64,000 nt of DNA, taken from contig OZ025258.1 of assembly GCA_964019135.1 (NCBI GenBank), forward strand, positions 35,746,126-35,810,125, in the 5' to 3' direction. The notes below the pieces were generated by a model that worked only from the letters and a program-made list of their open reading frames with translations, was not told the origin of the DNA and made no database searches. A program made the position numbers and the translations under genes. This DNA is from Arenicola marina (taxonomy: Eukaryota; Annelida; Polychaeta; Arenicolidae). Below, piece by piece: positions 33,801-60,800 of the stretch. Every line of letters begins with the position of its first letter. Within the stretch, counting starts at the first letter, position 1.

Positions 33801-36800
33801 CCTCCAGTCCGTGCGTCAGTAGCTGTGGCATGGGAATGGCACGTAGAACACTCCTCCAGTCCGTGCGTCAGTAGCTGTGGCATGGGAATGGCACGTAGAA
33901 CACTCCTCCAGTCCGTGCGTCAGTAGCTGTGGCATGGGAATGGCATGTAGAACACTCCTCCAGTCCGTGCGTCAATAGCTGTGGCATGGGAATGGCATGT
34001 AGAACACTCCTCCAGTCTGTGCGTCAGTAGCTGTGGCATGGGAATGGCACGTAGAACACTCCTCCAGTCCCTGCGTCAGTAGCTGTGGCATGGGAATGGC
34101 ACGTAGAACACTCCTCCAGTCCGTGCGTCAGTAGCTGTGGCATGGGAATGGCACGTAGAACACTCCTCCAGTCCGTGCGTCAGTAGCTGTGGCATGGGAA
34201 TGGCACGTAGAACACTCCTCCAGTCCGTGCGTCAGTAGCTGTGGCATGGGAATGGCACGTAGAACACTCCTCCAGTCCGTGCGTCAGTAGCTGTGGCATG
34301 GGAATGGCACGTAGAACACTCCTCCAGTCCGTGCGTCAGTAGCTGTGGCATGGGAATGGCACGTAGAACACTCCTCCAGTCCGTGCGTCAGTAGCTGTGG
34401 CATGGGAATGGCATGTAGAACACTCCTCCAGTCCGTGCGTCAATAGCTGTGGCATGGGAATGGCATGTAGAACACTCCTCCAGTCCGTGCGTCAGTAGCT
34501 GTGGCATGGGAATGGCACGTAGAACACTCCTCCAGTCCGTGCGTCAGTAGCTGTGGCATGGGAATGGCACGTAGAACACTCCTCCAGTCCCTGCGTCAGT
34601 AGCTGTGGCATGGGAATGGCACGTAGAACACTCCTCCAGTCCGTGCGTCAGTAGCTGTGGCATGGGAATGGCACGTAGAACACTCCTCCAGTCCGTGCGT
34701 CAGTAGCTGTGGCATGGGAATGGCACGTAGAACACTCCTCCAGTCCGTGCGTCAGTAGCTGTGGCATGGGAATGGCACGTAGAACACTCCTCCAGTCCGT
34801 GCGTCAGTAGCTGTGGCATGGGAATGGCATGTAGAACACTCCTCCAGTCCGTGCGTCAATAGCTGTGGCATGGGAATGGCATGTAGAACACTCCTCCAGT
34901 CTGTGCGTCAGTAGCTGTGGCACGGGAATGGCACGTAGAACACTCCTCCAGTCCGTGCGTCAGTAGCTGTGGCATGGGAATGGCACGTAGAACACTCCTC
35001 CAGTCCGTGCGTCAGTAGCTGTGGCATGGGAATGGCACGTAGAACACTCCTCCAGTCCGTGCGTCAGTAGCTGTGGCATGGGAATGGCACGTAGAACACT
35101 CCTCCAGTCCGTGCGTCAGTAGCTGTGGCATGGGAATGGCACGTAGAACACTCCTCCAGTCCGTGCGTCAGTAGCTGTGGCATGGGAATGGCACGTAGAA
35201 CACTCCTCCAGTCCGTGCGTCAGTAGCTGTGGCATGGGAATGGCACGTAGAACACTCCTCCAGTCCGTGCGTCAGTAGCTGTGGCATGGGAATGGCACGT
35301 AGAACACTCCTCCAGTCCGTGCGTCAGTAGCTGTGGCATAAGAATGGCACGTAGAACACTCCTCCAGTCCATGCGTCAGTAGCTGTGGCATGGGAATGGC
35401 ACGTAGAACACTCCTCCAGTCTGTGCGTCAGTAGCTGTGGCATGGGAATGGCACGTAGAACACTCCTCCAGTCTGTGCGTCAGTAGCTGTGGCATGGGAA
35501 TGGCACGTAGAACACTCCTCCAGTCTGTGCGTCAGTAGCTGTGGCATGGGAATGGCACGTAGAACACTCCTCCAGTCTGTGCGTCAGTAGCTGTGGCATG
35601 GGAATGGCACGTAGAACACTCCTCCAGTCTGTGCGTCAGTAGCTGCGGCATAGGAATGGCACGGAGAACACTCCTCCAGTCTGTGCGTCAGTAGCTGTGG
35701 CATGGGAATGGCATGTAGAACACTCCTCCAGTCCGTGCGTCAGTAGCTGTGGCATGGGAATGGCACGTAGAACACTTCTCCAGTCCGTGCGTCAGTAGCT
35801 GTGGCATGGGAATGGCACGTAGAACATCCCTCCAGTCCGTGTGTCAGTAGCTGTGGCATGGGAATGGCATGTAGAACACTCCTCCAGTCCGTGCGTCAGT
35901 AGCTGTGGCATGGGAATGGCAAGTAGAACACTCCGCCAGTCCGTGCGTCAGTAGCTGTGGCATGGGAATGGCACGTAGAACACTCCTCCAGTCTGTACGT
36001 CAGTAGCTGTGGCATGGGAATGGCATGTAGAACACTCCTCCAGTCCGTGCGTCAGTAGCTGTGGCATGGGAATGGCATGTAGAACACTCCTCCAGTCCGT
36101 GCGTCAGTAGCGGTGGCATGGGAATGACACGTAGAACACTCCTCCAGTCTGTGCGTCAGTAGCTGTGGCATGGGAATGGCACGTAGAACACTCCTCCAGC
36201 CCGTGCGTCAGTAGCTGTGGCATGGGAATGGCACGTAGAACACCCCTCCAGTCCGTGTGTCAGTAGCTGTGGCATGGGAATGGCATGTAGAACACTCCTC
36301 CAGTCCGTGCGTCAGTAGCTGTGGCATGGGAATGGCACGTAGAACACTCCTCCAGTCTGTACGTCAGTAGCTGTGGCATGGGAATGGCACGTAGAACACC
36401 CCTCCAGTCCGTGTGTCAGTAGCTGTGGCATGGGAATGGCATGTAGAACACTCCTCCAGTCCGTGCGTCAGTAGCTGTGGCATGGGAATGGCACGTAGAA
36501 CACTCCTCCAGTCCGTGCGTCAGTAGCTGTGGCATGGGAATGGCACGTAGAACACTCCTCCAGTCCGTGCGTCAGTAGCTGTGGCATGGGAATGGCACGT
36601 AGAACACTCCTCCAGTCCGTGCGTCAGTAGCTGTGGCATGGGAATGGCATGTAGAACACTCCTCCAGTCCGTGCGTCAGTAGCTGTGGCATGGGAATGGC
36701 ATGTAGAACACTCCGCCAGTCCGTGCGTCAGTAGCTGTGGCATGGGAATGGCACGTAGAACACTCCTCCAGTCCGTGCGTCAGTAGTTGTGGCATGGGAA

Positions 36801-39800
36801 TGGCACGTAGAACACTCCTCCAGTCCGTGCGTCAGTAGCTGCGGCATGGGAATGGTACGTAGAACACTCCTCCAGTCCGTGCGTCAGTCGCTGTGGCATG
36901 GGAATGGCACGTAGAACACTCCTCCAGTCCGTGCGTCAGTAGCTGTGGCATGGGAATGGCACGTAGAACACTCCTCCAGTCCGTGCGTCAGTAGCTGTGG
37001 CATGGGAATGGCACGTAGAACACTCCTCCAGTCCGTGCGTCAGTAGCTGTGGCATGGGAATGGCATGTAGAACACTCCTCCAGTCCGTGCGTCAGTAGCT
37101 GTGGCATGGGAATGGCACGTAGAACACTCCTCCAGTCTGTGCGTCAGTAGCTGCGGCATGGGAATGGCACGTAGAACACTCCTCCAGTCTGTGCGTCAGT
37201 AGCTGTGGCATGGGAATGGCATGTAGAACACTCCTCCAGTCCGTGCGTCAGTAGCTGTGGCATGGGAATGGCACGTAGAACACTTCTCCAGTCCGTGCGT
37301 CAGTAGCTGTGGCATGGGAATGGCACGTAGAACACCCCTCCAGTCCGTGTGTCAGTAGCTGTGGCATGGGAATGGCATGTAGAACACTCCTCCAGTCCGT
37401 GCGTCAGTAGCTGTGGCATGGGAATGGCAAGTAGAACACTCCTCCAGTCCGTGCGTCAGTAGCTGTGGCATGGGAATGGCACGTAGAACACTCCTCCAGT
37501 CCGTGCGTCAGTAGCTGTGGCATGGGAATGGCACGTAGAACACTCCTCCAGTCCGTGCGTCAGTAGCTGTGGCATGGGAATGGCACGTAGAACACCCCTC
37601 CAGTCCGTGCGTCAGTAGCTGTGGCATGGGAATGGCACGTAGAACACCCCTCCAGTCCGTGTGTCAGTAGCTGTGGCATGGGAATGGCATGTAGAACACT
37701 CCTCCAGTCCGTGCGTCAGTAGCTGTGGCATGGGAATGGCACGTAGAACACCCCTCCAGTCCGTGTGTCAGTAGCTGTGGCATGGGAATGGCATGTAGAA
37801 CACTCCTCCAGTCCGTGCGTCAGTAGCTGTGGCATGGGAATGGCAAGTAGAACACTCCTCCAGTCCGTGCGTCAGTAGCTGTGGCATGGGAATGGCACGT
37901 AGAACACTCCTCCAGTCCGTGCGTCAGTAGCTGTGGCATGGGAATGGCACGTAGAACACTCCTCCAGTCCGTGCGTCAGTAGCTGTGGCATGGGAATGGC
38001 ACGTAGAACACTCCTCCAGTCCGTGCGTCAGTAGCTGTGGCATGGGAATGGCAAGTAGAACACTACTCCAGCCCGTGCGTCAGTAGCTGTGGCATGGGAA
38101 TGGCACGTAGAACACTCCTCCAGTCTGTACGTCAGTAGCTGTGACATGGGAATGGCACGTAGAACACTCCTCCAGTCCGTGCGTCAGTAGCTGTGGCATG
38201 GGAATGGCACGTAGAACACTCCTCCAGTCCGTGCGTCAGTAGATGTGGCATAGGAATGGCACGTAGAACACTCCTCCAGTCCGTGCGTCAGTAGCTGTGG
38301 CATGGGAATGGCACGTAGAACACTCCTCCAGTCCGTGCGTCAGTAGCTGTGGCATGGGAATGGCACGTAGAACACTCCTCCAGTCCGTGCGTCAGTAGCT
38401 GTGGCATGGGAATGGCACGTAGAACACTCCTCCAGTCCGTGCGTCAGTAGCTGTGACATGGGAATGGCACGTAGAACACTCCTCCAGTCCGTGCGTCAGT
38501 AGATGTGGCATAGGAATGGCACGTAGAACACTCCTCCAGTCTGTACGTCAGTAGCTGTGACATGGGAATGGCACGTAGAACACTCCTCCAGTCCGTGCGT
38601 CAGTAGCTGTGGCATGGGAATGGCACGTAGAACACTCCTCCAGTCCGTGCGTCAGTAGCTGTGGCATGGGAATGGCACGTAGAACACTCCTCCAGTCCGT
38701 GCGTCAGTAGCTGTGACATAGGAATGGCACGTAGAACACTCCTCCAGTCCGTGCGTCAGTAGCTGTGGCATGGGAATGGCACGTAGAACACTCCTCCAGT
38801 CCGTGCGTCAGTAGATGTGGCATAGAAATGGCACGTAGAACACTCTTCCAGCCCGTGCGTCAGTAGCTGTGGCATGGGAATGGCACGTAGAACACTCCTC
38901 CAGTCTGTGCGTCAGTAGCTGTGGCATGGGAATGGCATGTAGAACACTCCTCCAGTCCGTGCGTCAGTAGCTGTGGCATGGGAATGGCACGTAGAACACT
39001 TCTCCAGTCCGTGCGTCAGTAGCTGTGGCATGGGAATGGCACGTAGAACACCCCTCCAGTCCGTGTGTCAGTAGCTGTGGCATGGGAATGGCATGTAGAA
39101 CACTCCTCCAGTCCGTGCGTCAGTAGCTGTGGCATGGGAATGGCAAGTAGAACACTCCTCCAGTCCGTGCGTCAGTAGCTGTGGCATGGGAATGGCACGT
39201 AGAACACTCCTCCAGTCCGTGCGTCAGTAGCTGTGGCATGGGAATGGCACGTAGAACACTCCTCCAGTCCGTGCGTCAGTAGCTGTGGCATGGGAATGGC
39301 ACGTAGAACACCCCTCCAGTCCGTGCGTCAGTAGCTGTGGCATGGGAATGGCACGTAGAACACCCCTCCAGTCCGTGTGTCAGTAGCTGTGGCATGGGAA
39401 TGGCATGTAGAACACTCCTCCAGTCCGTGCGTCAGTAGCTGTGGCATGGGAATGGCACGTAGAACACCCCTCCAGTCCGTGTGTCAGTAGCTGTGGCATG
39501 GGAATGGCATGTAGAACACTCCTCCAGTCCGTGCGTCAGTAGCTGTGGCATGGGAATGGCAAGTAGAACACTCCTCCAGTCCGTGCGTCAGTAGCTGTGG
39601 CATGGGAATGGCACGTAGAACACTCCTCCAGTCCGTGCGTCAGTAGCTGTGGCATGGGAATGGCACGTAGAACACTCCTCCAGTCCGTGCGTCAGTAGCT
39701 GTGGCATGGGAATGGCACGTAGAACACTCCTCCAGTCCGTGCGTCAGTAGCTGTGGCATGGGAATGGCAAGTAGAACACTACTCCAGCCCGTGCGTCAGT

Positions 39801-42800
39801 AGCTGTGGCATGGGAATGGCACGTAGAACACTCCTCCAGTCTGTACGTCAGTAGCTGTGACATGGGAATGGCACGTAGAACACTCCTCCAGTCCGTGCGT
39901 CAGTAGCTGTGGCATGGGAATGGCACGTAGAACACTCCTCCAGTCCGTGCGTCAGTAGATGTGGCATAGGAATGGCACGTAGAACACTCCTCCAGTCCGT
40001 GCGTCAGTAGCTGTGGCATGGGAATGGCACGTAGAACACTCCTCCAGTCCGTGCGTCAGTAGCTGTGGCATGGGAATGGCACGTAGAACACTCCTCCAGT
40101 CCGTGCGTCAGTAGCTGTGGCATGGGAATGGCACGTAGAACACTCCTCCAGTCCGTGCGTCAGTAGCTGTGACATGGGAATGGCACGTAGAACACTCCTC
40201 CAGTCCGTGCGTCAGTAGATGTGGCATAGGAATGGCACGTAGAACACTCCTCCAGTCTGTACGTCAGTAGCTGTGACATGGGAATGGCACGTAGAACACT
40301 CCTCCAGTCCGTGCGTCAGTAGCTGTGGCATGGGAATGGCACGTAGAACACTCCTCCAGTCCGTGCGTCAGTAGCTGTGGCATGGGAATGGCACGTAGAA
40401 CACTCCTCCAGTCCGTGCGTCAGTAGCTGTGACATGGGAATGGCACGTAGAACACTCCTCCAGTCCGTGCGTCAGTAGCTGTGGCATGGGAATGGCACGT
40501 AGAACACTCCTCCAGTCCGTGCGTCAGTAGATGTGGCATAGAAATGGCACGTAGAACACTCTTCCAGCCCGTGCGTCAGTAGCTGTGGCATGGGAATGGC
40601 ACGTAGAACACTCCTCCAGTCCGTGCGTCAGTAGCTGTGGCATGGGAATGGCATGTAGAACACTCCTCCAGTCCGTGGGTCAGTAGCTGTGGCACGGGAA
40701 TGGCATGTAGAACCCTCCTCCAGTCCGTGCGTCAGTAGCTGTGGCATGGGAATGGCACGTAGAACACTCCTCCAGTCCGTGCGTCAGTAGCTGTGGCATG
40801 GGAATGGCATGTAGAACACTCCTCCAGTCCGTGCGTCAGTAGCTGTGGCATGGGAATGGCACGTAGAACACTCCTCCAGTCCGTGCGTCAGTAGCTGTGG
40901 CATGGGAATGGCATGTAGAACACTCATCCAGTCCGTGCGTCAGTAGCTGTGGCATGGGAATGGCATGTAGAACACTCATCCAGTCCGTGCGTCAGTAGCT
41001 GTGGCATGGGAATGGCATGTAGAACACTCCTCCAGTCCCTGCGTCAGTAGCTGTGGCATGGGAATGGCATGTAGAACACTCCTCCAGTCCGTGCGTCAGT
41101 AGCTGTGGCATGGGAATGGCATGTAGAACACTCCTCCAGTCCGTGGGTCAGTAGCTGTGGCATGGGAATGGCACGTAGAACACTCCTCCAGTCCGTGTGT
41201 CAGTAGCTGTGGCATGGGAATGGCATGTAGAACACTCCTCCAGTCCCTGCGTCAGTAGCTGTGGCATGGGAATGGCATGTAGAACACTCCTCCAGTCCGT
41301 GCGTCAGTAGCTGTGGCATGGGAATGGCATGTAGAACACTCCCCCAGTCCGTGCGTCAGTAGCTGTGGCATGGGAATGGCAAGTAGAACACTCCTCCAGT
41401 CCGTGCGTCAGTAGCTGTGGCATGGGAATGGCATGTAGAACCCTCCTACAGTCCGTGTGTCAGTAGCTGTGGCATGGGAATGGCACGTAGAACACTCCTC
41501 CAGTCCGTGCGTCAGTAGCTGTGGCATGGGAATGGCATGTAGAACACTCCTCCAGTCCCTGCGTCAGTAGCTGTGGCATGGGAATGGCATGTAGAACACT
41601 CCTCCAGTCCGTGCGTCAGTAGCTGTGGCATGGGAATGGCATATAGAACACTCCTCCAGTCCGTGCGTCAGTAGCTGTGGCATGGGAATGGCAAGTAGAA
41701 CACTCCCCCAGTCCGTGCGTCAGTAGCTGTGGCATGGGAATGGCAAGTAGAACACTCCTCCAGTCCGTGCGTCAGTAGCTGTGGCATGGGAATGGCATGT
41801 AGAACCCTCCTACAGTCCGTGTGTCAGTAGCTGTGGCATGGGAATGGCATGTAGAACACTCCTCCAGTCCGTGCGTCAGTAGCTGTGGCATGGGAATGGC
41901 ATGTAGAACACTCCTCCAGCCCGTGCGTCAGTAGCTGTGGCATGAGAATGGCATGTAGAACACTCCTCCAGTCCGTGCGTCAGTGGCTGTGGCATGGGAA
42001 TGGCATGTAGAACACTCCTCCAGTCTGTGCGTCAGTAGCTGTGGCATTGGACTGGCATGTAGAACACTCCTCCAGTCCGTGCGTCAGTGGCTGTGGCATG
42101 GGAATGGCATGTAGAACACTCCTCCAGTCCGTGCGTCAGTAGCTGTGGCATGGGAATGGCATGTAGAACACTCCTCCAGTCCGTGCGTCAGTAGCTGTGG
42201 CATGGGAATGGCACGTAGAACACTCCTCCAGTCCGTGCGTCAGTAGCTGTGGCATTGGACTGGCACGTAGAACACTCCTCCAGTCCGTGCGTCAGTAGCT
42301 GTGGCATGGGAATGGCACGTAGAACACTCCTCCAGTCCATGCGTCAGTAGCTGTGGCATGGGAATGGCATGTAGAACACTCCTCCAGTCCGTGCGTCAGT
42401 AGCTGTGGCATGGGAATGGCACGTAGAACACTCCTCCAGTCCGTGCGTCAGTAGCTGTGGCATTGGACTGGCACGTAGAACACTCCTCCAGTCCGTGCGT
42501 CAGTAGCTGTGGCATGGGAATGGCACGTAGAACACTCCTCCAGTCCATGCGTCAGTAGCTGTGGCATGGGAATGGCACGTAGAACACTCCTCCAGTCCGT
42601 GCGTCAGTAGCTGTGGCATTGGACTGGCACGTAGAACACTCCCCCAGTCCGTGCGTCAGTAGCTGTGGCATGGGAATGGCACGTAGAACACTCCTCCAGT
42701 CCATGCGTCAGTAGCTGTGGCATGGGAATGGCATGTAGAACACTCCTCCAGTCCGTGCGTCAGTAGCTGTGGCATGGGAATGGCATGTAGAACACTCCTC

Positions 42801-45800
42801 CAGTCCGTGCGTCAGTAGCTGTGGCATGGGAATGCCATGTAGAACACTCCTCCAGTCCGTGCGTCAGTAGCTGTGGCATGGGAATGGCATGTAGAACACT
42901 CCTCCAGTCCGTGCGTCAGTAGCTGTGGCATGGGAATGGCACGTAGAACACTCTACCAGCCCGTGCGGCAGTAGCTGTGAAATGATTCCTGGAAATGTGA
43001 TGCATATCCTAAAAATGGTTTATGAATACGGGCCCTGGCACCAACAATTTCATCGTCCTGGGAGTTTAGTCAGCATTACATTAGCATATATATTTTTTAT
43101 ATTTACGCAAAAAGTTACCTAATACAAAAACATTTTGCCGGATCCTATTTCCGTAGGAGGCCAAGTCGGCGGCGTCGACGGCTGTGACGTTAGCCAGTGA
43201 ATACCTGGCGACGAAGGCAGCGCACCTGGCGGACTCCTTCCAGATGGCGATCACCTCTTACGCTTTGCAAAAGAGCGGCAACAGCTACAAGGATGAAGCC
43301 TTCCTAATCCTGCAGACCATGTCGCGGCAAGATACTGTGGGTGAGAACGTCTGATTCAGAAGGGGAATATCCATCAATACATGTGCGTGTATAATGCGTG
43401 AGTAAACGTCCTTGAACCGTACGTGCAGTCCCCAGAGGTCGACGGGACGAGGTTGGTCATACTGCAGCCGGTGTCGGGGTAAATATACTCACCTTATAGA
43501 TAAATACCTTCTTTTTTTCTATACAAAAATGGGTACCTGTTTCCGTGGAAATTCTATGTAATAATACTGTTATTGACTTTTGTATTCGTGACTTCAGTAG
43601 CATGAAATGTAGTGATCTTGTCATCATTTATCTTATCTGTGTGTTTACATCAATATAATATAAATCATAGAACAGGATATAGAAATATAGTACAGAAAAA
43701 TTACAATTCCAGTTGACGCAACAGGCTGGTTTGAATCTATCCCACGTAACCTTTTTTGGAAGCCTTGGCTTAAATCTAAATGTTCGTATATTCCCTACAT
43801 TGTGAATAGAGATGTAATATAGCGTGTAGTGTTTTGAGGCGGACGGGTACCCTCCCCCCCCCCAACCCACCTCCCGCCCCAGCCTCATGTGCCAAGATGA
43901 GTCTTATTGTGAAAATGGACGCTTCCTTGCAGACAGCCACCCGTACTGGTGTACCTGGGAGTTAGAATCCAACCCCTACGACATCGTCGACAATAAATAC
44001 ATGTTACTGTCGCGGCCAGACTTCCCGAACCTGTCCAACGCTGTCATGGCAACGTCCTACGCCATGCTGCTGTATCTAGATCACGGGATGTTCGAGGAAT
44101 CCAGACCCATCATGAAATGGATTGTCAATAGTCACCAGTCCGACCTTTGTTTCGCATCCGACCTGGTAAAGATTACCGCATTATTGAAGATGACAAGGAG
44201 TCGATTTTTTTAGTAGCCCCATATGAGGTGTATATAATGGTATTATTATTATGCAAGATCTGTAACTTCTAACCATTTAAACAGGCTTTTCCCGTAAAAG
44301 TTGTTACTATATAGAGTTTGAGCTTTTCATTGCCGCAATACACATAGCCACCAACTTACGATGAGCTCTCAAACCAAATTAATGTAGCCATGGATTATAA
44401 CTGATGACTGACCTGCCCCGCCCACTCTCGGTGCAGGACACACTGTTAGGCGTGCGGGCGCTGACGGAGTACGCCAAGCGGGAGACCAACCACCAGTTCT
44501 ACAACATGGCCATCGACATTAAGGCCACGTCGTCCCCAGACTGGCACGAAACAGCCCGAATCAACGCCTCGTCCTTCCCCCTCTACTACAGCTATAGCGT
44601 GAGTTAACATGTCGAGTCAACGCCTCGTCCTTCCCACTCTACCACACCTATAACGTGAGTTAACATGTCGAGTCAACGCCTCGTCCTTCCCCCTCTACTA
44701 CACCTATAACGTGAGTTAACATGTCGAGTCAACGCCTCGTCCTTCCCCCTCTACTACAGCTATAACGTGCGTTAACATGTCGAATCAACGCCTCGTCCTT
44801 CCCACTCTACCACACCTATAACGTGAGTTAACATGTCGAATCAACGCCTCGTCCTTCCCACTCTACTACACCTATAACGTGAGTTAACATGTCGAATCAA
44901 CGCCTCGTCCTTCCCACTCTACCACACCTATAACGTGAGTTAACATGTCGAATCAACGCCTCGTCCTTCCCACTCTACCACACTTATAACGTGAGTTAAC
45001 ATGTCGAATCAACGCCTCGTCCTTCCCCCTCTACTACAGCTATAGCGTGAATTAACATGTCGAGTCAACGCCTCGTCCTTCCCCCTCTACTACAGCTATA
45101 ACGTGAATTAACATGTCGAATCAACGCCTCGTCCTTCGCCCTCTACTACAGCTATAGCGTGAGTTAACATGTCGAGTCAACGCCTCGTCCTTCCCACTCT
45201 ACCACACCTATAACGTGAGTTAACATGTCGAGTCAACGCCTCGTCCTTCCCACTCTACCAGACCTATAACGTGAGTTAACATGTCGAATCAACGCCTCGT
45301 CCTTCCCACTCTACCACACCTATAACGTGAGTTAACATGTCGAATCAACGCCTCGTCCTTCCCCCTCTACTACAGCTATAACGTGAATTAACATGTCGAG
45401 TCAACGCCTCGTCCTTCCCCCTCTACTACAGCTATAACGTGAATTAACATGTCGAATCAACGCCTCGTCCTTCCCCCTCTACTACAGCTATAGCCTGAGG
45501 TAACATGTTGAGTCAACGCCTCGTCCTTCCCCCTCTACTACAGTTATTAACGTGAGTTAACATGTCGAGTCAACGCCTCGTCCTTCCCCCTCTACCACAC
45601 CTATAACGTGAATTAACATGTCGAGTCAAAGCCTCGTCCTTCCCCCTCTACTACAGCTATAACGTGAGTTAACATGTCGAGTCAACGCCTCGTTCTTCCC
45701 CCTCTACTACAGCTATAACGTGAATTAACATGTCGAGTCAACGCCTCGTCCTTCCCCCTCTACTACAGCTATAAGGTGAATTAACATGTCGAATCAACGC

Positions 45801-48800
45801 CTCGTCCTTCCCCCTCTACTACAGCTATAGCGTGAGTTAACATGTCGAGTCAACGCCTCGTCCTTCCCCCTCTACTACAGCTATAACGTGAGTTAACATG
45901 TCGAGTCAACGCCTCGTCCTTCCCCCTCTACTACAGCTATAGCGTGAGTTAACATGTCGAGTCAACGCCTCGTCCTTCCCCCTCTACTACAGCTATAACG
46001 TGAGTTAACATGTCGAGTCAACGCCTCGTCCTTCCCCCTCTACCACACCTAGAGCGTGAATTAACATGTCGAATCAACGCCTCGTCCTTCCCCCTCTACT
46101 ACAGCTATAACGTGAGTTAACATGTCGAGTCAACGCCTCGTCCTTCCCCTTCTATTACAGCTATAGCGTGAGTTAACATGTCGAGTCAACGCCTCGTCCT
46201 TCCCCTCTACTACACCTATTACGTGAGTTAACATGTCGAGTCAACGCCTCGTCCTTCCCCCTCTACTACACCTATAACGTGAGTTAACATGTCGAATCAA
46301 CGCCTCGTCCTTCCCCCTCTACTACAGCTATAACGTGAGGTAACATGTCGAATCAACGCCTCGTCCTTCCCCTCTACTACACCTAGAGCGTGAGTTAACA
46401 TGTCGAATCAACGCCTCGTCCTTCCCCCTCTACTACAGCTATAACGTGAGTTAACATGTCGAATCAACGCCTCGTCCTCCCCCTCCACTACAACTATAAC
46501 GTGAGTTAACATGTCGACTCAACGCCTCGTCCTTCCCACTCTACCACACCTATAACGTGAGTTAACATGTCGAATCAACGCCTCGTCCTTCCCACTCTAC
46601 CAGACCTATAACGTGAGTTAACATGTCGAATCAACGCCTCGTCCTTCGCACTCTACCAGACCTATAACGTGAGTTAACATGTCGAATCAACGCCTCGCCC
46701 TTCCCCCTCTACTACACCTATAACGTGAGTTAACATGTCGAGTCGACGCCTCGTCCTTCCCCCTCTACTACAGCTATAACGTGCGTTAACATGTCGAATC
46801 AACGCCTCGTCCTTCCCACTCTACCACACCTATAACGTGAGTTAACATGTCGAATCAACGCCTCGTCCTTCCCACTCTACCAGACCTATAACGTGAGTTA
46901 ACATGTCGAATCAACGCCTCGTCCTTCCCACTATACCACTCTTATAACGTGAGTTAACATGTCGAATCAACGCCTCGTCCTTCCCCCTCTACTACAGCTA
47001 TAGCGTGAATTAACATGTCGAGTCAACGCCTCGTCCTTCCCCCTCTACTACAGCTATAACGTGAATTAACATGTCGAATCAACGCCTCGTCCTTCGCCCT
47101 CTACTACAGCTATAGCGTGAGTTAACATGTCGAGTCAACGCCTCGTCCTTCCCACTCTACCACACCTATAACGTGAGTTAACATGTCGAATCAACGCCTC
47201 GTCCTTCCCACTCTACCAGACCTATAACGTGAGTTAACATGTCGAATCAACGCCTCGTCCTTCCCACTCTACCACACCTATAACGTGAGTTAACATGTCG
47301 AATCAACGCCTCGTCCTTCCCCCTCTACTACAGCTATAACGTGAATTAACATGTCGAGTCAACGCCTCGTCCTTCCCCCTCTACTACAGCTATAACGTGA
47401 ATTAACATGGCGAATCAACGCCTCGTCCTTCCCCCTCTACTACAGCTACAGCGTGAGTTAACATGTCGAGTCAACGCCTCGTCCTTCCCCCTCTACTACA
47501 GTTATTAACGTGAGTTAACATGTCGAGTCAACGCCTCGTCCTTCCCCCTCTACCACACCTATAACGTGAATTAACATGTCGAGTCAACGCCTCGTCCTTC
47601 CCCCTCTACTACAGCTATAACGTGAGTTAACATGTCGAGTCAACGCCTCGTTCTTCCCCCTCTACTACAGCTATAACGTGAATTAACATGTCGAGTCAAC
47701 GCCTCGTCCTTCCCCCTCTACTACAGCTATAACGTGAATTAACATGTCGAATCAACGCCTCGTCCTTCCCCCTCTACTACAGCTATAGCGTGAGTTAACA
47801 TGTCGAGTCAACGCCTCGTCCTTCCCCCTCTACTACAGCTATAACGTGAGTTAACATGTCGAGTCAACGCCTCGTCCTTCCCCCTCTACTACAGCTATAA
47901 CGTGAGTTAACATGTCGAGTCAACGCCTCGTCCTTCCCCCTCTACTACAGCTATAACGTGAGTTAACATGTCGAGTCAACGCCTCGTCCTTCCCCCTCTA
48001 CCACACCTAGAGCGTGAGTTAACATGTCGAATCAACGCCTCGTCCTTCCCCTTCTATTACAGCTATAGCGTGAGTTAACATGTCGAGTCAACGCCTCGTC
48101 CTTCCCCTCTACTACACCTATTACGTGAGTTAACATGTCGAGTCAACGCCTCGTCCTTCCCCCTCTACTACACCTATAACGTGAGTTAACATGTCGAATC
48201 AACGCCTCGTCCTTCCCCCTCTACTACAGCTATAACGTGAGGTAACATGTCGAATCAACGCCTCGTCCTTCCCCTCTACTACACCTAGAGCGTGAGTTCA
48301 CATGTCGAATCAACGCCTCGTCCTTCCCCCTCTACTACAGCTATAGCGTGAGTTAACATGTCGAATCAACGCCTCGTCCTTCCCCCTCTACTACAACTAT
48401 AACGTGAGTTAACATGTCGAATCAACGCCTCGTCCTTCCCACTCTACCACACCTATAACGTGAGTTAACATGTCGAATCAACGCCTCGTCCTTCCCCCTC
48501 TACTACAGCTATAGCGTGAGTTAACATGTCGAGTCAACGCCTCGTCCTTCCCCCTCTACTACAGCTATAACGTGAGTTAACATGTCGAGTCAACGCCTCG
48601 TCCTTCCCCCTCTACTACAGCTATAGCGTGAGTTAACATGTCGAGTCAACGCCTCGTCCTTCCCCCTCTACTACAGCTATAACGTGAGTTAACATGTCGA
48701 GTCAACGCCTCGTCCTTGCCCTTCTACCACACCTAGAGCGTGAGTTAACATGTCGAATCAACGCCTCGTCCTTCCCCCTCTATTACAGCTATAGCGTGAG

Positions 48801-51800
48801 TTAACATGTCGAGTCAACGCCTCGTCCTTCCCCTCTACTACACCTATTACGTGAGTTAACATGTCGAGTCAACGCCTCGTCCTTCCCCTCTACTACACCT
48901 ATAACGTGAGTTAACATGTCGAATCAACGCCTCGTCCTTCCCCCTCTACTACAGCTATAACGTGAGGTAACATGTCGAATGAACGCCTCGTCCTTCCCCT
49001 CTACTACACCTAGAGCGTGAGTTAACATGTCGAATCAACGCCTCGTCCTTCCCCCTCTACTACAGCTATAACGTGAGTTAACATGTCGAATCAACGCCTC
49101 GTCCTTCCCCCTCCACTACAACTATAACGTGAGTTAACATGTCGACTCAACGCCTCGTCCTTCCCACTCTACCACACCTATAACGTGAGTTAACATGTCG
49201 AATCAACGCCTCGTCCTTCCCACTCTACCAGACCTATAACGTGAGTTAACATGTCGAATCAACGCCTCGTCCTTCCCACTCTACCACACCTATAACGTGA
49301 GTTAACATGTCGAATCAACACCTCGCCCTTCCCCCTCTACTACACCTATAACGTGAGTTAACATGTCGAGTCGACGCCTCGTCCTTCCCCCTCTACTACA
49401 GCTATAACGTGCGTTAACATGTCGAATCAACGCCTCGTCCTTCCCACTCTACCACACCTATAACGTGAGTTAACATGTCGAATCAACGCCTCGTCCTTCC
49501 CACTCTACCAGACCTATAACGTGAGTTAACATGTCGAATCAACGCCTCGTCCTTCCCACTCTACCACACTTATAACGTGAGTTAACATGTCGAATCAACG
49601 CCTCGTCCTTCCCCCTCTACTACAGCTATAGCGTGAATTAACATGTCGAGTCAACGCCTCGTCCTTCCCCCTCTACTACAGCTATAACGTGAATTAACAT
49701 GTCGAATCAACGCCTCGTCCTTCGCCCTCTACTACAGCTATAGCGTGAGTTAACATGTCGAGTCAACGCCTCGTCCTTCCCACTCTACCACACCTATAGC
49801 GTGAGTTAACATGTCGAGTCAACGCCTCGTCCTTCCCCTCTACTACACCTATTACGTGAGTTAACATGTCGAGTCAACGCCTCGTCCTTCCCCCTCTACT
49901 ACACCTATAACGTGAGTTAACATGTCGAATCAACGCCTCGTCCTTCCCCCTCTACTACAGCTATAACGTGAGGTAACATGTCGAATCAACGCCTCGTCCT
50001 TCCCCTCTACTACACATAGAGCGTGAGTTCACATGTCGAATCAACGCCTCGTCCTTCCCCCTCTACTACAGCTATAGCGTGAGTTAACATGTCGAATCAA
50101 CGCCTCGTCCTTCCCCCTCTACTACAACTATAACGTGAGTTAACATGTCGAATCAACGCCTCGTCCTTCCCACTCTACCACACCTATAACGTGAGTTAAC
50201 ATGTCGAATCAACGCCTCGTCCTTCCCCCTCTACTACAGCTATAGCGTGAGTTAACATGTCGAGTCAACGCCTCGTCCTTCCCCCTCTACTACAGCTATA
50301 GCGTGAGTTAACATGTCGAGTCAACGCCTCGTCCTTCCCCCTCTACTACAGCTATAGCGTGAGTTAACATGTCGAGTCAACGCCTCGTCCTTCCCCCTCT
50401 ACTACAGCTATAACGTGAGTTAACATGTCGAGTCAACGCCTCGTCCTTGCCCTTCTACCACACCTAGAGCGTGAGTTGACATGTCGAATCAACGCCTCGT
50501 CCTTCCCCCTCTACTACAGCTATAACGTGAGGTAACATGTCGAATCAACGCCTCGTCCTTCCCCTTTACTACACCTAGAGCGTGAGTTCACATGTCGAAT
50601 CAACGCCTCGTCCTTCCCCCTCTACTACAGCTATAGCGTGAGTTAACATGTCGAATCAACGCCTCGTCCTTCCCCCTCTACTACAACTATAACGTGAGTT
50701 AACATGTCGAATCAACGCCTCGTCCTTCCCACTCTACCACACCTATAACGTGAGTTAACATGTCGAATCAACGCCTCGTCCTTCCCCCTCTACTACAGCT
50801 ATAGCGTGAGTTAACATGTCGAGTCAACGCCTCGTCCTTCCCCCTCTACTACAGCTATAACGTGAGTTAACATGTCGAGTCAACGCCTCGTCCTTCCCCC
50901 TCTACTACAGCTATAGCGTGAGTTAACATGTCGAGTCAACGCCTCGTCCTTCCCCCTCTACTACAGCTATAACGTGAGTTAACATGTCGAGTCAACGCCT
51001 CGTCCTTGCCCTTCTACCACACCTAGAGCGTGAGTTAACATGTCGAATCAACGCCTCGTCCTTCCCCCTCTATTACAGCTATAGCGTGAGTTAACATGTC
51101 GAGTCAACGCCTCGTCCTTCCCCTCTACTACACCTATTACGTGAGTTAACATGTCGAGTCAACGCCTCGTCCTTCCCCCTCTACTACACCTATAACGTGA
51201 GTTAACATGTCGAATCAACGCCTCGTCCTTCCCCCTCTACTACAGCTATAACGTGAGGTAACATGTCGAATCAACGCCTCGTCCTTCCCCTCTACTACAC
51301 CTAGAGCGTGAGTTAACATGTCGAATCAACGCCTCGTCCTTCCCCCTCTACTACAGCTATAACGTGAGTTAACATGTCGAATCAACGCCTCGTCCTTCCC
51401 CCTCCACTACAACTATAACGTGAGTTAACATGTCGACTCAACGCCTCGTCCTTCCCACTCTACCACACCTATAACGTGAGTTAACATGTCGAATCAACGC
51501 CTCGTCCTTCCCACTCTACCAGACCTATAACGTGAGTTAACATGTCGAATCAACGCCTCGTCCTTCCCACTCTACCAGACCTATAACGTGAGTTAACATG
51601 TCGAATCAACGCCTCGCCCTTCCCCCTCTACTACACCTATAACATGAGTTAACATGTCGAGTCGACGCCTCGTCCTTCCCCCTCTACTACAGCTATAACG
51701 TGCGTTAACATGTCGAATCAACGCCTCGTCCTTCCCACTCTACCACACCTATAACGTGAGTTAACATGTCGAATCAACGCCTCGTCCTTCCCACTCTACC

Positions 51801-54800
51801 AGACCTATAACGTGAGTTAACATGTCGAATCAACGCCTCGTCCTTCCCACTCTACCACACTTATAACGTGAGTTAACATGTCGAATCAACGCCTCGTCCT
51901 TCCCCCTCTACTACTGCTATAGCGTGAATTAACATGTCGAGTCAACGCCTCGTCCTTCTCCCTCTACTACAGCTATAACGTGAATTAACATGTCGAATCA
52001 ACGCCTCGTCCTTCGCCCTCTACTACAGCTATAGCGTGAGTTAACATGTCGAGTCAACGCCTCGTCCTTCCCACTCTACCACACCTATAACGTGAGTTAA
52101 CATGTCGAATCAACGTCTCGTCCTTCCCACTCTACCAGACCTATAACGTGAGTTAACATGTCGAATCAACGCCTCGTCCTTCCCACTCTACCACACCTAT
52201 AACGTGAGTTAACATGTCGAATCAACGCCTCGTCCTTCCCCCTCTACTACAGCTATAACGTGAATTAACATGTCGAGTCAACGCCTCGTCCTTCCCCCTC
52301 TACTACAGCTATAACGTGAATTAACATGTCGAATCAACGCCTCGTCCTTCCCCCTCTACTACAGCTATAGCGTGAGTTAACATGTCGAGTCAACGCCTCG
52401 TCCTTCCCCCTCTACTACAGTTATTAACGTGAGTTAACATGTCGAGTCAACGCCTCGTCCTTCCCCCTCTACCACACCTGTAACGTGAATTAACATGTCG
52501 AGTCAACGCCTCGTCCTTCCCCCTCTACTACAGCTATAACGTGAGTTAACATGTCGAGTCAACGCCTCGTCCTTCCCCCTCTACTACAGCTATAGCGTGA
52601 GTTAACATGTCGAATCAACGCCTCGTCCTTCCCCCTCTACTACAGCTATAACGTGAGTTAACATGTCGAGTCAACGCCTCGTCCTTGCCCTTCTACCACA
52701 CCTAGAGCGTGAGTTAACATGTCGAATCAACGCCTCGTCCTTCCCCCTCTATTACAGCTATAGCGTGAGTTAACATGTCGAGTCAACGCCTCGTCCTTCC
52801 CCTCTACTACACCTATTACGTGAGTTAACATGTCGAGTCAACGCCTCGTCCTTCCCCCTCTACTACACCTATAACGTGAGTTAACATGTCGAATCAACGC
52901 CTCGTCCTTCCCCCTCTACTACAGCTATAACGTGAGGTAACATGTCGAATCAACGCCTCGTCCTTCCCCTCTACTACACCTATAACGTGAGTTAACATGT
53001 CGAATCAACGCCTCGCCCTTCCCCCTCTACTACACCTATAACGTGAGTTAACATGTCGAGTCGACGCCTCGTCCTTCCCCCTCTACTACAGCTATAACGT
53101 GCGTTAACATGTCGAATCAACGCCTCGTCCTTCCCACTCTACCACACCTATAACGTGAGTTAACATGTCGAATCAACGCCTCGTCCTTCCCACTCTACCA
53201 GACCTATAACGTGAGTTAACATGTCGAATCAACGCCTCGTCCTTCCCACTCTACCACACTTATAACGTGAGTTAACATGTCGAATCAACGCCTCGTCCTT
53301 CGCCCTCTACTACAGCTATAGCGTGAGTTAACATGTCGAGTCAACGCCTCGTCCTTCCCACTCTACTACACCTATAACGTGAGTTAACATGTCGAATCAA
53401 CGCCTCGTCCTTCCCACTCTACCAGACCTATAACGTGAGTTAACATGTCGAATCAATGCCTCGTCCTTCCCACTCTACCACACCTATAACGTGAGTTAAC
53501 ATGTCGAATCAACGCCTCGTCCTTCCCCCTCTACTACAGCTATAACGTGAATTAACATGTCGAGTCAACGCCTCGTCCTTCCCCCTCTACTACAGCTATA
53601 ACGTGAATTAACATGTCGAATCAACGCCTCGTCCTTCCCCCTCTACTACAGCTATAGCGTGAGTTAACATGTCGAGTCAACGCCTCGTCCTTCCCCCTCT
53701 ACTACAGTTATTAACGTGAGTTAACATGTCGAGTCAACGCCTCGTCCTTCCCCCTCTACCACACCTATAACGTGAATTAACATGTCGAGTCAACGCCTCG
53801 TCCTTCCCCCTCTACTACAGCTATAACGTGAGTTGACATGTCGAGTCAACGCCTCGTTCTTCCCCCTCTACTACAGCTTTAACGTGAATTAACATGTCGA
53901 GTCAACGCCTCGTCCTTCCCCCTCTACTACAGCTATAACGTGAATTAACATGTCGAATCAACGCCTCGTCCTTCCCCCTCTACTACAGCTATAGCGTGAG
54001 TTAACATGTCGAGTCAACGCCTCGTCCTTCCCCCTCTACTACAGCTATAACGTGAGTTAACATGTCGAGTCAACGCCTCGTCCTTCCCCCTCTACTACAG
54101 CTATAGCGTGAGTTAACATGTCGAGTCAACGCCTCGTCCTTCCCCCTCTACTACAGCTATAACGTGAGTTAACATGTCGAGTCAACGCCTCGTCCTTCCC
54201 CCTCTACCACACCTAGAGCGTGAGTTAACATGTCGAATCAACGCCTCGTCCTTCCCCTTCTATTACAGCTATAGCGTGAGTTAACATGTCGAGTCAACGC
54301 CTCGTCCTTCCCCTCTACTACACCTATTACGTGAGTTAACATGTCGAGTCAACGCCTCGTCCTTCCCCCTCTACTACACCTATAACGTGAGTTAACATGT
54401 CGAATCAACGCCTCGTCCTTCCCCCTCTACTACAGCTATAACGTGAGGTAACATGTCGAATCAACGCCTCGTCCTTCCCCTCTACTACACCTAGAGCGTG
54501 AGTTAACATGTCGAATCAACGCCTCGTCCTTCCCCCTCTACTACAGCTATAGCGTGAGTTAACATGTCGAATCAACGCCTCGTCCTTCCCCCTCTACTAC
54601 AACTATAACGTGAGTTAACATGTCGAATGAACGCCTCGTCCTTCCCACTCTACCACACCTATAACGTGAGTTAACATGTCGAATCAACGCCTCGTCCTTC
54701 CCCCTCTACTACAGCTATAGCGTGAGTTAACATGTCGAGTCAACGCCTCGTCCTTCCCCCTCTACTACAGCTATAACGTGAGTTAACATGTCGAGTCAAC

Positions 54801-57800
54801 GCCTCGTCCTTCCCCCTCTACTACAGCTATAACGTGAATTAACATGTCGAGTCAACGCCTCGTCCTTCCCCCTCTACTACAGCTATAACGTGAATTAACA
54901 TGTCGAATCAACGCCTCGTCCTTCCCACTCTACCAGACCTATAACGTGAGTTAACTTGTCGAATCAACGCCTCGTCCTTCCCACTCTACCAGACCTATAA
55001 GGTGAGTTAACATGTCGAATCAACGCCTCGCCCTTCCCCCTCTACTACACCTATAACGTGAGTTAACATGTCGAATCAACGCCTCGTCCTTCACCCTCTA
55101 CTACAGCTGCAACGTGAGTTAACACGTCGAATCAACGCCTCGTCCTTCCCCCTCTACTACAGCTATAGCGTGAGTTAACATGTCGAATCAACGCCTCGTC
55201 CTTCCCTCTCTACTACACATATAACGTGAGTTAACATGCCGAGTCAACGCCTCGTCCTTCCCCCTCTACTACACCTATAACGTGAGTTAACATGACGAGT
55301 CAACGCCTCGTCCTTCCCCCTCTACTACAGCTATAGCGTGAGTTAACATGTCGAATCAACACCTCGTCCTTCCCCCTCTACTACACCTATAAGGTGAGTT
55401 AATATGTCGCATCAACGCCTCGTCCTTCCCTCTCTACTACACATATAACGTGAGTTAACATGTCGAGTCAACGCCACGTCCTTCCCCCTCTACTACACAT
55501 ATAACGTGAGTTAACATGTCGAGTCAACGCCACGTCCTTCCCCCTCTACTACAGCTATAGCGTGAGTTAACATGTCGAGTCAACGCCTCGTCCTTCCCCC
55601 TCTACTACACCTATAACGTGAGGTAACATGTCGAATCAACGCCTCGTCCTTCCCCCTCTACTACAGCTATAGCGTGAGTTAACATGTCGAATCAACACCT
55701 CGTCCTTCCCCCTCTACTACACCTATAACGTGAGTTGGCATGTCGAATCAACGCCTCGTCCTTCCCCCTTCTACTACACCTATAGCGTGAGTTAACATGT
55801 CGAGTCAACGCCTCGTCCTTTTCTCTCTACTACACCTATAACGTGAGTTAACATGTTGAATCAACGCCTCGTCCTTCCCCGTCTACTACACCTATAACGT
55901 GAGTTAACATGTCGAATCAACGCCTCGTCCTTCCCCCTCTACTACAGCTATAGCGTGAGTTAACATGTCGAATCAACACCTCGTCCTTCCCCCTCTACTA
56001 CACCTATAACGTGAGTTAACATGTCGAGTCAACGCCTCGTCCTTCCCCCTCTACTACACCTATAACGTGAGTTAACATGTCGAATCAACGCCTCGTCCTT
56101 CCCCCTCTACTACACCTATAGCTTGAGTTAACATGTCGAGTCAATGCCTCGTCCTTTTCTCTCTACTACACCTATAACGTGAGTTAACATGTCAAGTCAA
56201 CGCCTCGTCCTTCCCCCTCTACTACAGCTATAGCGTGAGTTAACATGTCGAGTCAACGCCTCGTTCTTCACCCTCTACTACAGCTGCAACGTGAGTTAAC
56301 ATGTCGAATCAACGCCTCGTCCTTCCCCCTCTACTACAACTATAGCCTGAGTTAACATGTCGAATCAACGCCACGTCCTTCCCCCTCTACTACAGCTATA
56401 ACGTGAGTTAACATGTCGAGTCAACGCCTCGTCTTTCCCCCTCTACTACAGCTATAACGTGGGTTAACATGTCGAATCAACGCCTCGTCCTTCCCCCTCT
56501 ACTACACCTATAACGTGAGTTAACATGTCGAGTCAACGCCTGGTCCTTCCCTCCCTACTACACCTATAACGTGAGTTAACATGTCGAATCAACACCTCGT
56601 CCTTCCCCCTCTACTACACCTATAAGGTGAGTTAATATGTCGAATCAACGCCTCGTCCTTCCCTCTCTACTACACATATAACGTGATTTAACATGTCGAG
56701 TCAACGCCACGTCCTTCCCCCTCTACTACACATATAACGTGAGTTAACATGTCGAGTCAACGCCACGTCCTTCCCCCTCTACTACAGCTATAGCGTGAGT
56801 TAACATGTCGAGTCAACGCCTCGTCCTTCACCCTCTACTACACCTATAACGTGAGGTAACATGTCGAATCAAAGCCTCGTCCTTCCCCCTCTACTACAGC
56901 TATAGCGTGAGTTAACATGTCGAATCAACGCCTCGTCCTTCCCCCTCTACTACACCTATAACGTGAGTTGGCATGTCGAATCAACGCCTCGTCCTTCCCC
57001 CCTCTACTACACCTATAGCGTGAGTTAACATGTCGAGTCAACGCCTCGTCCTTTTCTCTCTACTACACCTATAACGTGAGTTAACATGTCGAATCAACGC
57101 CTCGTCCTTCCCCCTCTACTACACCTATAACGTGAGTTAACATGTCGAATCAACGCCTCGTCCTTCCCCCTCTACTACAGCTATAGCGTGAGTTAACATG
57201 TCGAATCAACATCTCGTCCTTCCCCCTCTACTACACCTATAACGTGAGTTGGCATGTCGAATCAACGCCTCGTCCTTCCCCCCTCTACTACACTTATAGC
57301 GTGAGTTAACATGTCGAGTCAACGCCTCGTCCTTTTCTCTCTACTACACCTATAACGTGAGTTAACATGTCGAATCAACGCCTCGTCCTTCCCCCTCTAC
57401 TACACCTATAACGTGAGTTAACATGTCGAATCAACACCTCGTCCTTCCCCCTCTACTACACCTATAACGTGAGTTAACATGTCAAGTCAACGCCTCGTCC
57501 TTCCCCCTCTACTACAGCTATAACGTGAGTTAACATGTCGAGTCAACGCCTCGTCCTTCCCCCTCTACTACACCTATAACGTGAGTTAACATGTCGAGTC
57601 AACGCCTCGTCCTTCCCCCTCTACTACACCTATAACGTGAGTTAACATGTCGAATCAACGCCTCGTCCTTCCCCCTCTACTACACCTATAGCTTGAGTTA
57701 ACATGTCGAGTCAATGCCTCGTCCTTTTCTCTCTACTACACCTATAACGTGAGTTAACATGTCAAGTCAACGCCTCGTCCTTCCCCCTCTACTACAGCTA

Positions 57801-60800
57801 TAGCGTGAGTTAACATGTCGAGTCAACGCCTCGTCCTTCACCCTCCTACTACAGCTGCAACGTGAGTTAACATGTCGAATCAACGCCTCGTCCTTCCCCC
57901 TCTACTACAACTATAGCCTGAGTTAACATGTCGAATCAACGCCTCGTCCTTCCCCCTCTACCACACCTATAACGTGAGTTAACATGTCGAATCAACGCCT
58001 CGTCCTTCCCCCTCTACTACACCTATTACGTGAGTTAAGATGTCGAGTCAACGCCTCGTCCTTCCTCCTCTACTACACCTATAACGTGAGTTAACATGTC
58101 GAATCAACGCCTCCTCTTTCCCCCTCTACTACACCTATAACGTGAGGTAACATGTCGAATCAACGCCTCATCCTTCCCCCTCTACTACAGCTATAACGTG
58201 AGTTAACATGTCGAGTCAACGCCTCGTCCTTCCCCCTCTACTACACCTATAACGTGAGTTAACATGTCGAATTAACGCCTCGTCCTCCCCATTCTACTAC
58301 ACCTATAACGTGAGTTAACATGTCGCGTCAACCCCTCGTCCTTCCCCCGTCTACTACAGCTATAACGTGAATTAACATGTCGAATCAACGCCTCGTCCTT
58401 CCCCCTCTACTACAGCTATAACGTGAGTTAACATGTCGAGTCAACGCCTCGTCCTTCCCCCCTCTACTACACCTATAGCGTGAGTGAACATGTCGAATCA
58501 ACGCCTCCTCTTTCCCCCTCTACTACACCTATAACGTGAGGTAACATGTCGAATCAACGCCTCGTCCTTCCCCCTCTACTACACCTATAGCTTGAGTTAA
58601 CATGTCGAATTAACGCCTCGTCCTTCTCCCTCTACTACACCTATAGCTTGCGTTAACATGTCGAATCAACGCCTCGTCCTTCCCCCGTCTACTACAGCTA
58701 TAACGTGAATTAACATGTCGAATCAACGCCTCGTCCTTCCCCCTCTACTACAGCTATAACGTGAGTTAACATGTCGAATCAACGCCTCGTCCTTCCCCCT
58801 CTACTACAGCTATAGCGTGAGTTAACATGTCGAATTAACGCCTCGTCCTTCCCCCTCTACTAAAGCTATAACGTGAGTTAACATGTCGAATCAACGCCTC
58901 GTCCTTCCCCCTCTACTACACCTATAACGTGAGTTAACATGTCGCGTCAACGCCTCGTCCTTCCCCCTCTACTACAGCTATAACGTGAGTTAACATGTCG
59001 AGTCAACGTCTCGTCCTTCCCCCTCTACTACACCTATAACGTGAGTTAACATGTCAAATTAACGCCTCGTCCTTCCACCTCTACTACATCTATAACGTGA
59101 GTTAACATGTCGAATCCACGCCTCGTCCTTCCCCCTCTACTACAGCTATAACGTGAGTTAACATGTCGAATTAACGCCTCGTCCTTCCCCCTCTACTAAA
59201 GCTATAACGTGAGTTAACATGTCGAATCAACGCCTCGTCCTTCCCCCTCTACTACACCTATAACGTGAGTTAACATGTCGCGTCAACGCCTCGTCCTTCC
59301 CCCTCTACTACAGCTATAACGTGAGTTAACATGTCGAGTCAACGCCTCGTCCTTCCCCCTCTACTACAGCTATAACGTGAGTTAACATGTCGAGTCAACG
59401 CCTCGTTCTCGCCCCCCCCCCCCCTTTACTACAGCTATAGCGTGAGTTCATAATGTCCGTTATTTTGTCCGCTGTTGACTTTGTTGTTTGTCATCTTCAC
59501 CAGGTTCCCCAGGCCTGGGGTGAGGTTGTCACGTACGGTCAAGGCACGGGTTTCGCCTTCCTCAGCGTAAGGAAAATCTAATTTTTAGCGATGCTCTGAT
59601 CTGTGGCTTTATATAATGTGTTCACAAAATTGTAGAAGTCTTGGTTCGTAACGCTGTGTACAATATTTAGGCTACGCGAAAGAGAAACTCATGTCGAATC
59701 TTTTCCATGCGCTTTGTCATGATGACACCAATTACGAGCACTCTAAGAGACTTGATCCGACCCATTTGTGATCAAAAGTTGTGAAAGTTGGTAATAATAA
59801 TCCAAATTCCATCTTGCAAATAGGCAGATTTCTCTTGATGAGCATTACGTAATGGACAATGCAACGTGATAGAATCACCGCGATATATAAATTACATGAT
59901 AGAATCACCGCGATATATAAATTACATGATAGAATCACCGCGATATATAGATTACATGATAGAATCACCGCGAGATATAGATTACATGATAAAATCACCG
60001 CGAGATATAGATTACATGATAGAATCACCGCGAGATATAGATCACATGATAAAATCACCGCGAGGTATAGATTACATGATAGAATCACCGCAAGATATAG
60101 ATTACATGATAAAATCACCGCGAGATATAGATTACATGATGGAATCACCGCGAGATATAGATTACATGATAGAATCACCGCGAGATATAGATTACATGAT
60201 AAAATCACCGCGAGATATAGATTACATGATAGAATCACCGCAAGATATAGATTACGTGATAACATCACCGCGAGATATAGATTACATTCCGGAAGACCAG
60301 TGCAACGTCCGGTGAACCCATAATTTTGGGCGCATTTCTTTATGCCAGGGCAGGGATATCCCGCCCGGTACACCCGACACGTGACAAGAATCTTCCGTGC
60401 GTACCTAAAGGCGTATCTCTAATGATGTGCGGCCACCGGTCACGTCTATATTTATATGTAAAGACATTTACCCCCTTGACTGCATGGCCCGCCGTATGAC
60501 TTCCACTTTTCCCGCTAGATGGGGTCCACGTACTATGTTGAGAAGCCCTGGCAAGTCTACCAACCCACGCACGGGATCGACTCTTTTGTCATGACCATTG
60601 ACGACGTCCGGTTTTACGGCCGCAACGCCAGTATGCTCGACATCAAGTCATGTGCCACGTGAGTTTCGTATAATCACGCGGCACTTACAATCACATATAT
60701 ATACAAGCTATATTTATTATTATCACTATATTATTATTTTATTTTTCATTTTATCATAAGTGCCCATTTCTACTGAAAAGATACACATCACGCATATTTT

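Follow-up and report, generated by a model that had tools for sequence, protein, structure and literature searches.

Hundreds of tandem copies of an exon end and its splice donor in a macroglobulin-complement-related gene of the lugworm Arenicola marina

Tandem duplications of intron-exon borders were described in the globin genes of amphioxus and named 'mirages' after Adh3 (Ebner et al., PMC3087553); in the available text of that report, the Adh3 data and reverse transcription PCR of globin transcripts suggest no interference with regular splicing, and the draft genome version of one mirage appears aberrantly assembled. Border-spanning repeats were also found in amphioxus PGBD5 in a report whose available part cites Adh and troponin C as further cases (PMC3902484), and in human IFI6 two downstream units of a minisatellite are stated to be donor sites, giving three mRNAs (PMC4526556, citing Turri 1995). 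Here we describe a tandem array of 266 units, each including an exon end and its splice donor, in a macroglobulin-complement-related gene of the annelid Arenicola marina. The gene lies in a 64,000-nt stretch of assembly GCA_964019135.1 (contig OZ025258.1, positions 35,746,126 to 35,810,125 of the forward strand), hereafter called the window, in which positions are counted from the first letter.

The gene is on the plus strand, and its exons are matched by P0001, an nr protein named 'macroglobulin-complement related protein-like 2 [Arenicola marina]'. Homology to MCR / CD109-like macroglobulins along the protein, the TED region included, identifies the host gene as one of this kind; a TED_complement match of one exon open reading frame (E 4.5e-4, 19.9 bits) lay below the curated cut-off of 22. 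The exon at 18918 is presumably an LDLa exon, to judge by its cysteine pattern, and the Pfam list for P0001 is without LDLa. The exon bearing the array (44437-44598; 162 nt, phase 0; tblastn of P0001 residues 1107-1160) has the borders GGTGCAG/GACACA at its acceptor and AGC/GTGAGT at its donor, the slash marking the splice junction here and below. The next exon (VPQAWGEVVTYGQGTGFAFLS; 59504-59566, 63 nt; tblastn of residues 1161-1181) ends at the donor TTCCTCAGC/GTAAGG.

The last 42 nt of the first of these exons (44557-44598) and the first 14 nt of its intron constitute unit 1 of the array, which occupies 44557-59448 on the plus strand. Tandem Repeats Finder (TRF) called a period of 56 with 265.3 copies at 44557-59406, and cyclic alignment of 44557-59452 resolved 266 units of 56 bp, with 108 distinct sequences and a mean identity to the consensus of 95%. 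A preliminary description, which had claimed a 15-kb array of about 265 copies of an exon end (exon 31 in its numbering) plus its donor, with 42 nt of exon tail and 14 nt of intron in each unit, was thereby borne out. The donor GT was intact in 258 of the 266 units and the hexamer was exactly GTGAGT in 208, the remainder including GTGAAT (31), GTGAGG (12), GTGCGT (5) and a few more, and the TAA following the donor was kept in 256 units. As 29 of the 266 units carried indels, the further claim that every other donor would add 56n bases requires correction: not all additions would be exact multiples. The last unit, starting at 59391, is degenerate, and its donor GTGAGT (59442-59447) is intact 62 nt upstream of the exon at 59504, so that its use would leave a 62-nt intron. 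At array columns 32-35, ACAG closes a pyrimidine-rich stretch in 123 of the 266 units, a potential acceptor 7 nt before each such donor. Within the window, no known RNA family was found at the gathering threshold and no tRNA was found.

P0001 reads ...NASSFPLYYSYN-VPQAWGEVV..., with exon 44437-44598 joined to exon 59504-59566 and nothing between them, and its junction from ...YYSYN to VPQAW... marks the GTGAGT at 44599-44604, the first of the 258 intact GT donors, as the authentic one. Across 29 ungapped matches, 1306 of 1306 internal residues were identical between P0001 and the window exons, a count that omits the gapped match at residues 109-199 (109-183 identical by eye), residues 32-45 (from an exon too short for the cut-off) and the match ends. 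The sole true difference found was in the last codon of exon 44437-44598, which encodes N in P0001 and S (AGC) in the window; other differences at match ends fall, as judged by eye, on intron bases or split codons. The N codon (AAC) has the array majority base at that column (191 of 266 units). Because of this N/S difference, P0001 was taken to be independent of the present assembly, and the earlier proposal that the first donor is the genuine one agrees with an independent A. marina protein joining the two exons exactly there. Variation in the exon tail appears to go along with that in the array. Both P0001 and P0002, the protein of a paralog considered below, are single database proteins, which we infer to be derived from mRNA; among the papers that searches on A. 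marina complement genes brought up, none evidently concerned these proteins, as judged by titles and the starts of abstracts.

That the array is a product of chance is not an issue; that it is an assembly artefact, or has an inflated copy number, has to be considered, and 266 is the count as assembled. One amphioxus mirage seemingly misassembled in a draft genome (PMC3087553, in the text available) lends this reading some force. The array lies within a 43-Mb contig of an 867-Mb genome. Blocks of units are duplicated, 10 identical units being repeated at lag 41 and 6 at lag 111. The variant units, of which 108 are distinct, together with these block duplications argue against a simple assembly loop, and comparable arrays at other loci, whose units differ, tell against an artefact as well, as does the last-codon variant common to the array and the independent protein. 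We therefore regard the chance of such an artefact as slight.

If donor 1 is skipped, the reading frame continues as AGC-GTG-AGT-TAA, with an in-frame TAA (44605-44607) 6 nt beyond the donor, as the preliminary description had stated. P0001 demonstrates that the first donor is in use, not that its use is exclusive. The stop 6 nt past donor 1 makes stable mRNAs from later donors, of the type made from IFI6, unlikely. Earlier it was also held that the donors are equivalent, and the comparisons made here support this. Among the 258 intact donors, 158 scored higher than the first, 62 others scored equal to it and 37 scored lower, on a human-type donor weight matrix. The first unit belongs to a set of 37 that are identical across a 30-nt donor context. 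Its estimated U1 duplex energy was -6.5 kcal/mol vs -5.8 kcal/mol for the common copy, and this edge of 0.7 kcal/mol is common to 62 other units with the same 9-mer. As to accessibility, 58 of the 208 exact donors were less accessible than the first, and a 280-nt piece of the array folded no better than its shuffles (z 0.69). Two candidate marks of donor 1 were accordingly rejected: greater strength, by the weight matrix and the tie in the U1 estimate, and a special RNA structure, by its ordinary accessibility and fold score.

The donor nearest the acceptor is the last copy and not the first; donor 1 alone stands near the unique part of the exon and the 3′ splice site of that exon. This closeness singles out donor 1 in a way that fits exon definition plus nonsense-mediated decay. 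Exon definition is expected where exons are short and introns long. The median exon here was 147 nt (n = 119) and the median intron 656 nt (n = 121, a figure that missed exons would shorten), and these medians make exon definition the natural reading. We consider it probable that the array is an unusually long mirage, a minisatellite expanded to about 265 units and tolerated, without any dedicated function, because splicing selects the exon-proximal donor. The array would have begun when a short segment across the 5′ splice site was duplicated in tandem in this A. marina gene, and would have grown to about 265 units by unequal exchange or slippage, most likely without acquiring a dedicated function. 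The 3′ splice site (44436) and the nearest downstream donor would define the 162-nt exon, donor 1 would be paired across the exon before the other donors compete, and the array would be removed as part of a 14.9-kb intron. Transcripts spliced from later donors would include the TAA that directly follows donor 1 and would be expected to undergo nonsense-mediated decay.

The array is not unique in the genome: further donor-spanning arrays were found in the same gene, in its paralogs and in myosin exons. In the window gene, the last 29 nt of the exon at 12637-12861 (plus strand; tblastn of P0001 residues 109-183) seed a second array at 12833-14545 (plus strand), with 29 units of 59 bp (29 nt of exon tail and 30 nt of intron, TAC/GTGAGT), where read-through reaches a TGA after 15 nt. 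The surrounding 340 kb contain four paralogs with 125 exon matches, and tandem arrays make up 32% of the sequence. Counting arrays of at least 2.4 copies in these four genes, 7 of the 122 donors and 2 of the 122 acceptors were inside arrays, compared with none of 125 points in mid-exon and 38.5% of 5000 points placed at random in the genes; two-copy cases, a donor case in paralog A and an acceptor case in the window gene, are left out of the counts, and the exon borders in paralogs A and B were set by homology and simple scoring, so that some of the chosen donors are surely wrong. By TRF, the donor arrays have 29 and 265 copies in the window gene, about 91 (31 bp) and 5 (21 bp) copies in MCR-like 3, and 33 (37 bp), 8 (73 bp) and 42 (70 bp) copies in paralog A, the 70-bp array including just 6 exon bases (GAATAC/GTGAG, 41 occurrences). 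Of the acceptor arrays, that of paralog B has about 35 copies of a 62-bp unit and that of paralog A has 10 of a 65-bp unit. At all 7 donor-spanning arrays counted in the cluster, read-through in the frame given by the homology match would reach a stop within 1-141 nt of the donor, and P0002 shows clean exon joins at two of them, those with about 91 units of 31 bp and 5 units of 21 bp. No array spanned the donor in the copies of exon 44437-44598 in paralogs A and B, which implies that the array arose after the split or was lost in these paralogs. The acceptor array of paralog B (region 212098-214247; L007/L008) is a mirror case, with about 35 copies of TCTGACCCCCAG/GTGCCC and the last copy adjoining the exon.

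Elsewhere in the genome, donor-spanning arrays were present in 6 of 40 myosin-head exons (L038, L045, L058, L059, L061 and L063), with 3 to 7 donor copies per fetched piece. This sample comprised 300 bp around the 3′ end for 40 of 77 myosin-head exon matches, all from one family, and a donor-like motif was seen near the exon end in 35 of the 40 pieces. In L063 (1-300), the array units seem to have a GC-type donor, CTCCAG/GCAAGT, with 3 copies in the piece.

In the four genes, 16 of 51 array starts fell within -45 to +40 nt of a donor vs 5.0 expected (binomial P 1.7e-5), and 7 of 51 array ends fell that near an acceptor (P 0.23). With array bases excluded as target, 7 arrays started in the last 60 exon bases vs 3.5 expected (P 0.056); with array bases counted as target, the expected numbers of border-spanning seeds were 1.0 for donors and 0.7 for acceptors. 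Four donor windows were tried after seeing the list (P 0.056, 1.7e-5, 5e-4 and 4e-4), making the clustering a post hoc observation, and the four acceptor windows gave P 0.87, 0.23, 0.09 and 0.07. Selection against arrays inside exons and a mutational tendency at donors could both contribute. More tentatively, it is possible that 5′ splice sites are hot spots for array starts, so that arrays of donor copies open several per cent of the introns in this worm, that exchange between array and exon tail rewrites last codons, and that strict exon-proximal splicing nearly hides the process, a reading supported by the 16 of 51 starts at donors and by the N/S last-codon difference matching the array majority base.

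Several points weigh against an inert mirage tolerated through exon-proximal splicing. P0001 shows the use of donor 1 only, and products of other donors would be lost or undeposited; the upstream exons are also missing from the protein, and no match to its first six residues exists in the window. Classical two-site competition often favours the intron-proximal donor, here the last copy with its 62-nt intron. An enhancer in the unique part of the exon could take the place of exon definition, and the clustering of array starts at donors is unexplained by passive tolerance. In human IFI6, as far as the available text goes, downstream units serve as donors, so the first unit need not win everywhere (PMC4526556).

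The last of these points also speaks for a leak, in which splicing draws on many of the array donors and only nonsense-mediated decay removes the products, lowering or tuning expression at a cost, with allele length as a dial. The donors are equivalent in sequence, 37 of them to the extent of an identical 30-nt context, the stop lies 6 nt past donor 1, and lost products would be invisible among deposited proteins. Such a leak would be expensive, however, given that similar arrays recur in the genome (7 of 122 donors in the cluster, 6 of 40 myosin-head exons), and the amphioxus Adh3 data and globin transcripts, in the text available, suggest no interference (PMC3087553). We consider it unlikely that leakage of this kind explains the locus.

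The donor-like sequences might alternatively be functional, recruiting U1 to the 15-kb intron as a guard against premature polyadenylation, as a U1 sponge or for stepwise intron removal. The intact GT in 258 units, the exact GTGAGT in 208 and the acceptor-like ACAG end after a pyrimidine tract in 123 would suit such a role, but conservation is not highest in the donor columns: the frequency of minor bases averaged 0.038 for the donor hexamer, 0.057 for the exonic part and 0.012 for the other intronic part. Moreover, each internal ACAG step would add 7 nt, usually breaking the frame, and the two paralog copies of the exon do without such an array. A function of this sort thus appears very improbable. 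There was likewise no clear sign, among the 266 units, of decay of decoy donors under selection.

Further arrays were noted in the neighbourhood. In the same gene, a 10.8-kb intronic array (window 32221-42979; 52 bp x 207) begins 241 nt past a donor and stops about 178 nt short of an exon, so that it does not span a splice site. Arrays of about 94-95 copies of a near-identical 38-bp unit at window 19049-22622 and in an intron of paralog A (region 97343-100956) both begin 7 nt past the donor of the corresponding exon in the two paralogs, from which it follows that the array is common to them or was exchanged between them. Arrays with a near-identical 55-bp unit, located in different introns of two paralogs (window 24468-25333 and L003:5999-7103), suggest a dispersed repeat family, to judge from their units. 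A 23-bp array (window 61040-62827) starts 18 nt past the donor CAC/GTCAGT of the exon ending at 61021.

The locus amounts to a natural competition of about 258 near-identical donors located 62 nt to 14.9 kb from one acceptor. As their strength and context are nearly constant, exon-side vs intron-side pairing in splice-site choice, a long-standing question, becomes directly measurable within one animal. Given the recurrence of such arrays in the genome, gene prediction and the mapping of short reads may go wrong at exon ends in species of this kind. Border-spanning minisatellites, moreover, exist outside chordates.

Intron gain by tandem duplication of AGGT-type sites has reportedly been treated by Rogers in 1989, by Gao and Lynch in 2009 (both as cited in PMC3087553) and in PMC4974935. 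Duplication across splice signals is common to that process and the lugworm array; in the lugworm, an existing intron has been lengthened and no new intron was seen. Another annelid gene, that for earthworm metallothionein, likewise has a large minisatellite-bearing intron, for which the available part of the report describes no repeats spanning a splice site (PMC12783039). Human IFI6 (G1P3, 6-16) resembles the lugworm locus in having several 5′ splice sites, furnished by tandem units, at the end of one exon. According to the accessible text, its downstream units give three mRNA species and different isoforms, whereas in the lugworm a stop right after donor 1 means that later donors would truncate the protein (PMC4526556).

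The closest counterparts are the amphioxus mirages of Adh3, BflGb6/BflGb9, troponin C and PGBD5, which, like the lugworm array, are minisatellite-like repeats across an exon-intron border; by the portions of these reports at hand, they occur at 5′ or 3′ boundaries, include many copies with AG/GT signals and leave regular splicing undisturbed (PMC3087553, PMC3902484). Both the 42 + 14 nt and the 29 + 30 nt arrays of the lugworm gene have units that span the exon-intron border, as mirages do. Mirages are also marked by length instability, somatic change included, and by homogenisation of the interior that leaves out the edge of the cluster. In the lugworm array the last unit is degenerate, as such homogenisation would predict, but unit 1 has 18 exact twins inside the array and its last codon varies as the array does. 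The preliminary description had found no precedent for the array, and in this it was wrong, given the amphioxus mirages (PMC3087553, PMC3902484) and human IFI6 (PMC4526556), even as known from partial text. The lugworm array differs in size, with 266 units over 15 kb vs the 2-7 repeats of PGBD5 and 3-6 of globin BflGb6 given there, and in host phylum, an annelid vs a cephalochordate, which makes it a structure of the same kind and not one of common descent. Recurrence at 7 of 122 and 6 of 40 sampled donors further sets it apart from the amphioxus mirages as described in those portions. As far as our searches of the open-licence literature reach, the annelid host, the size and the frequency are new, and the kind itself is known.

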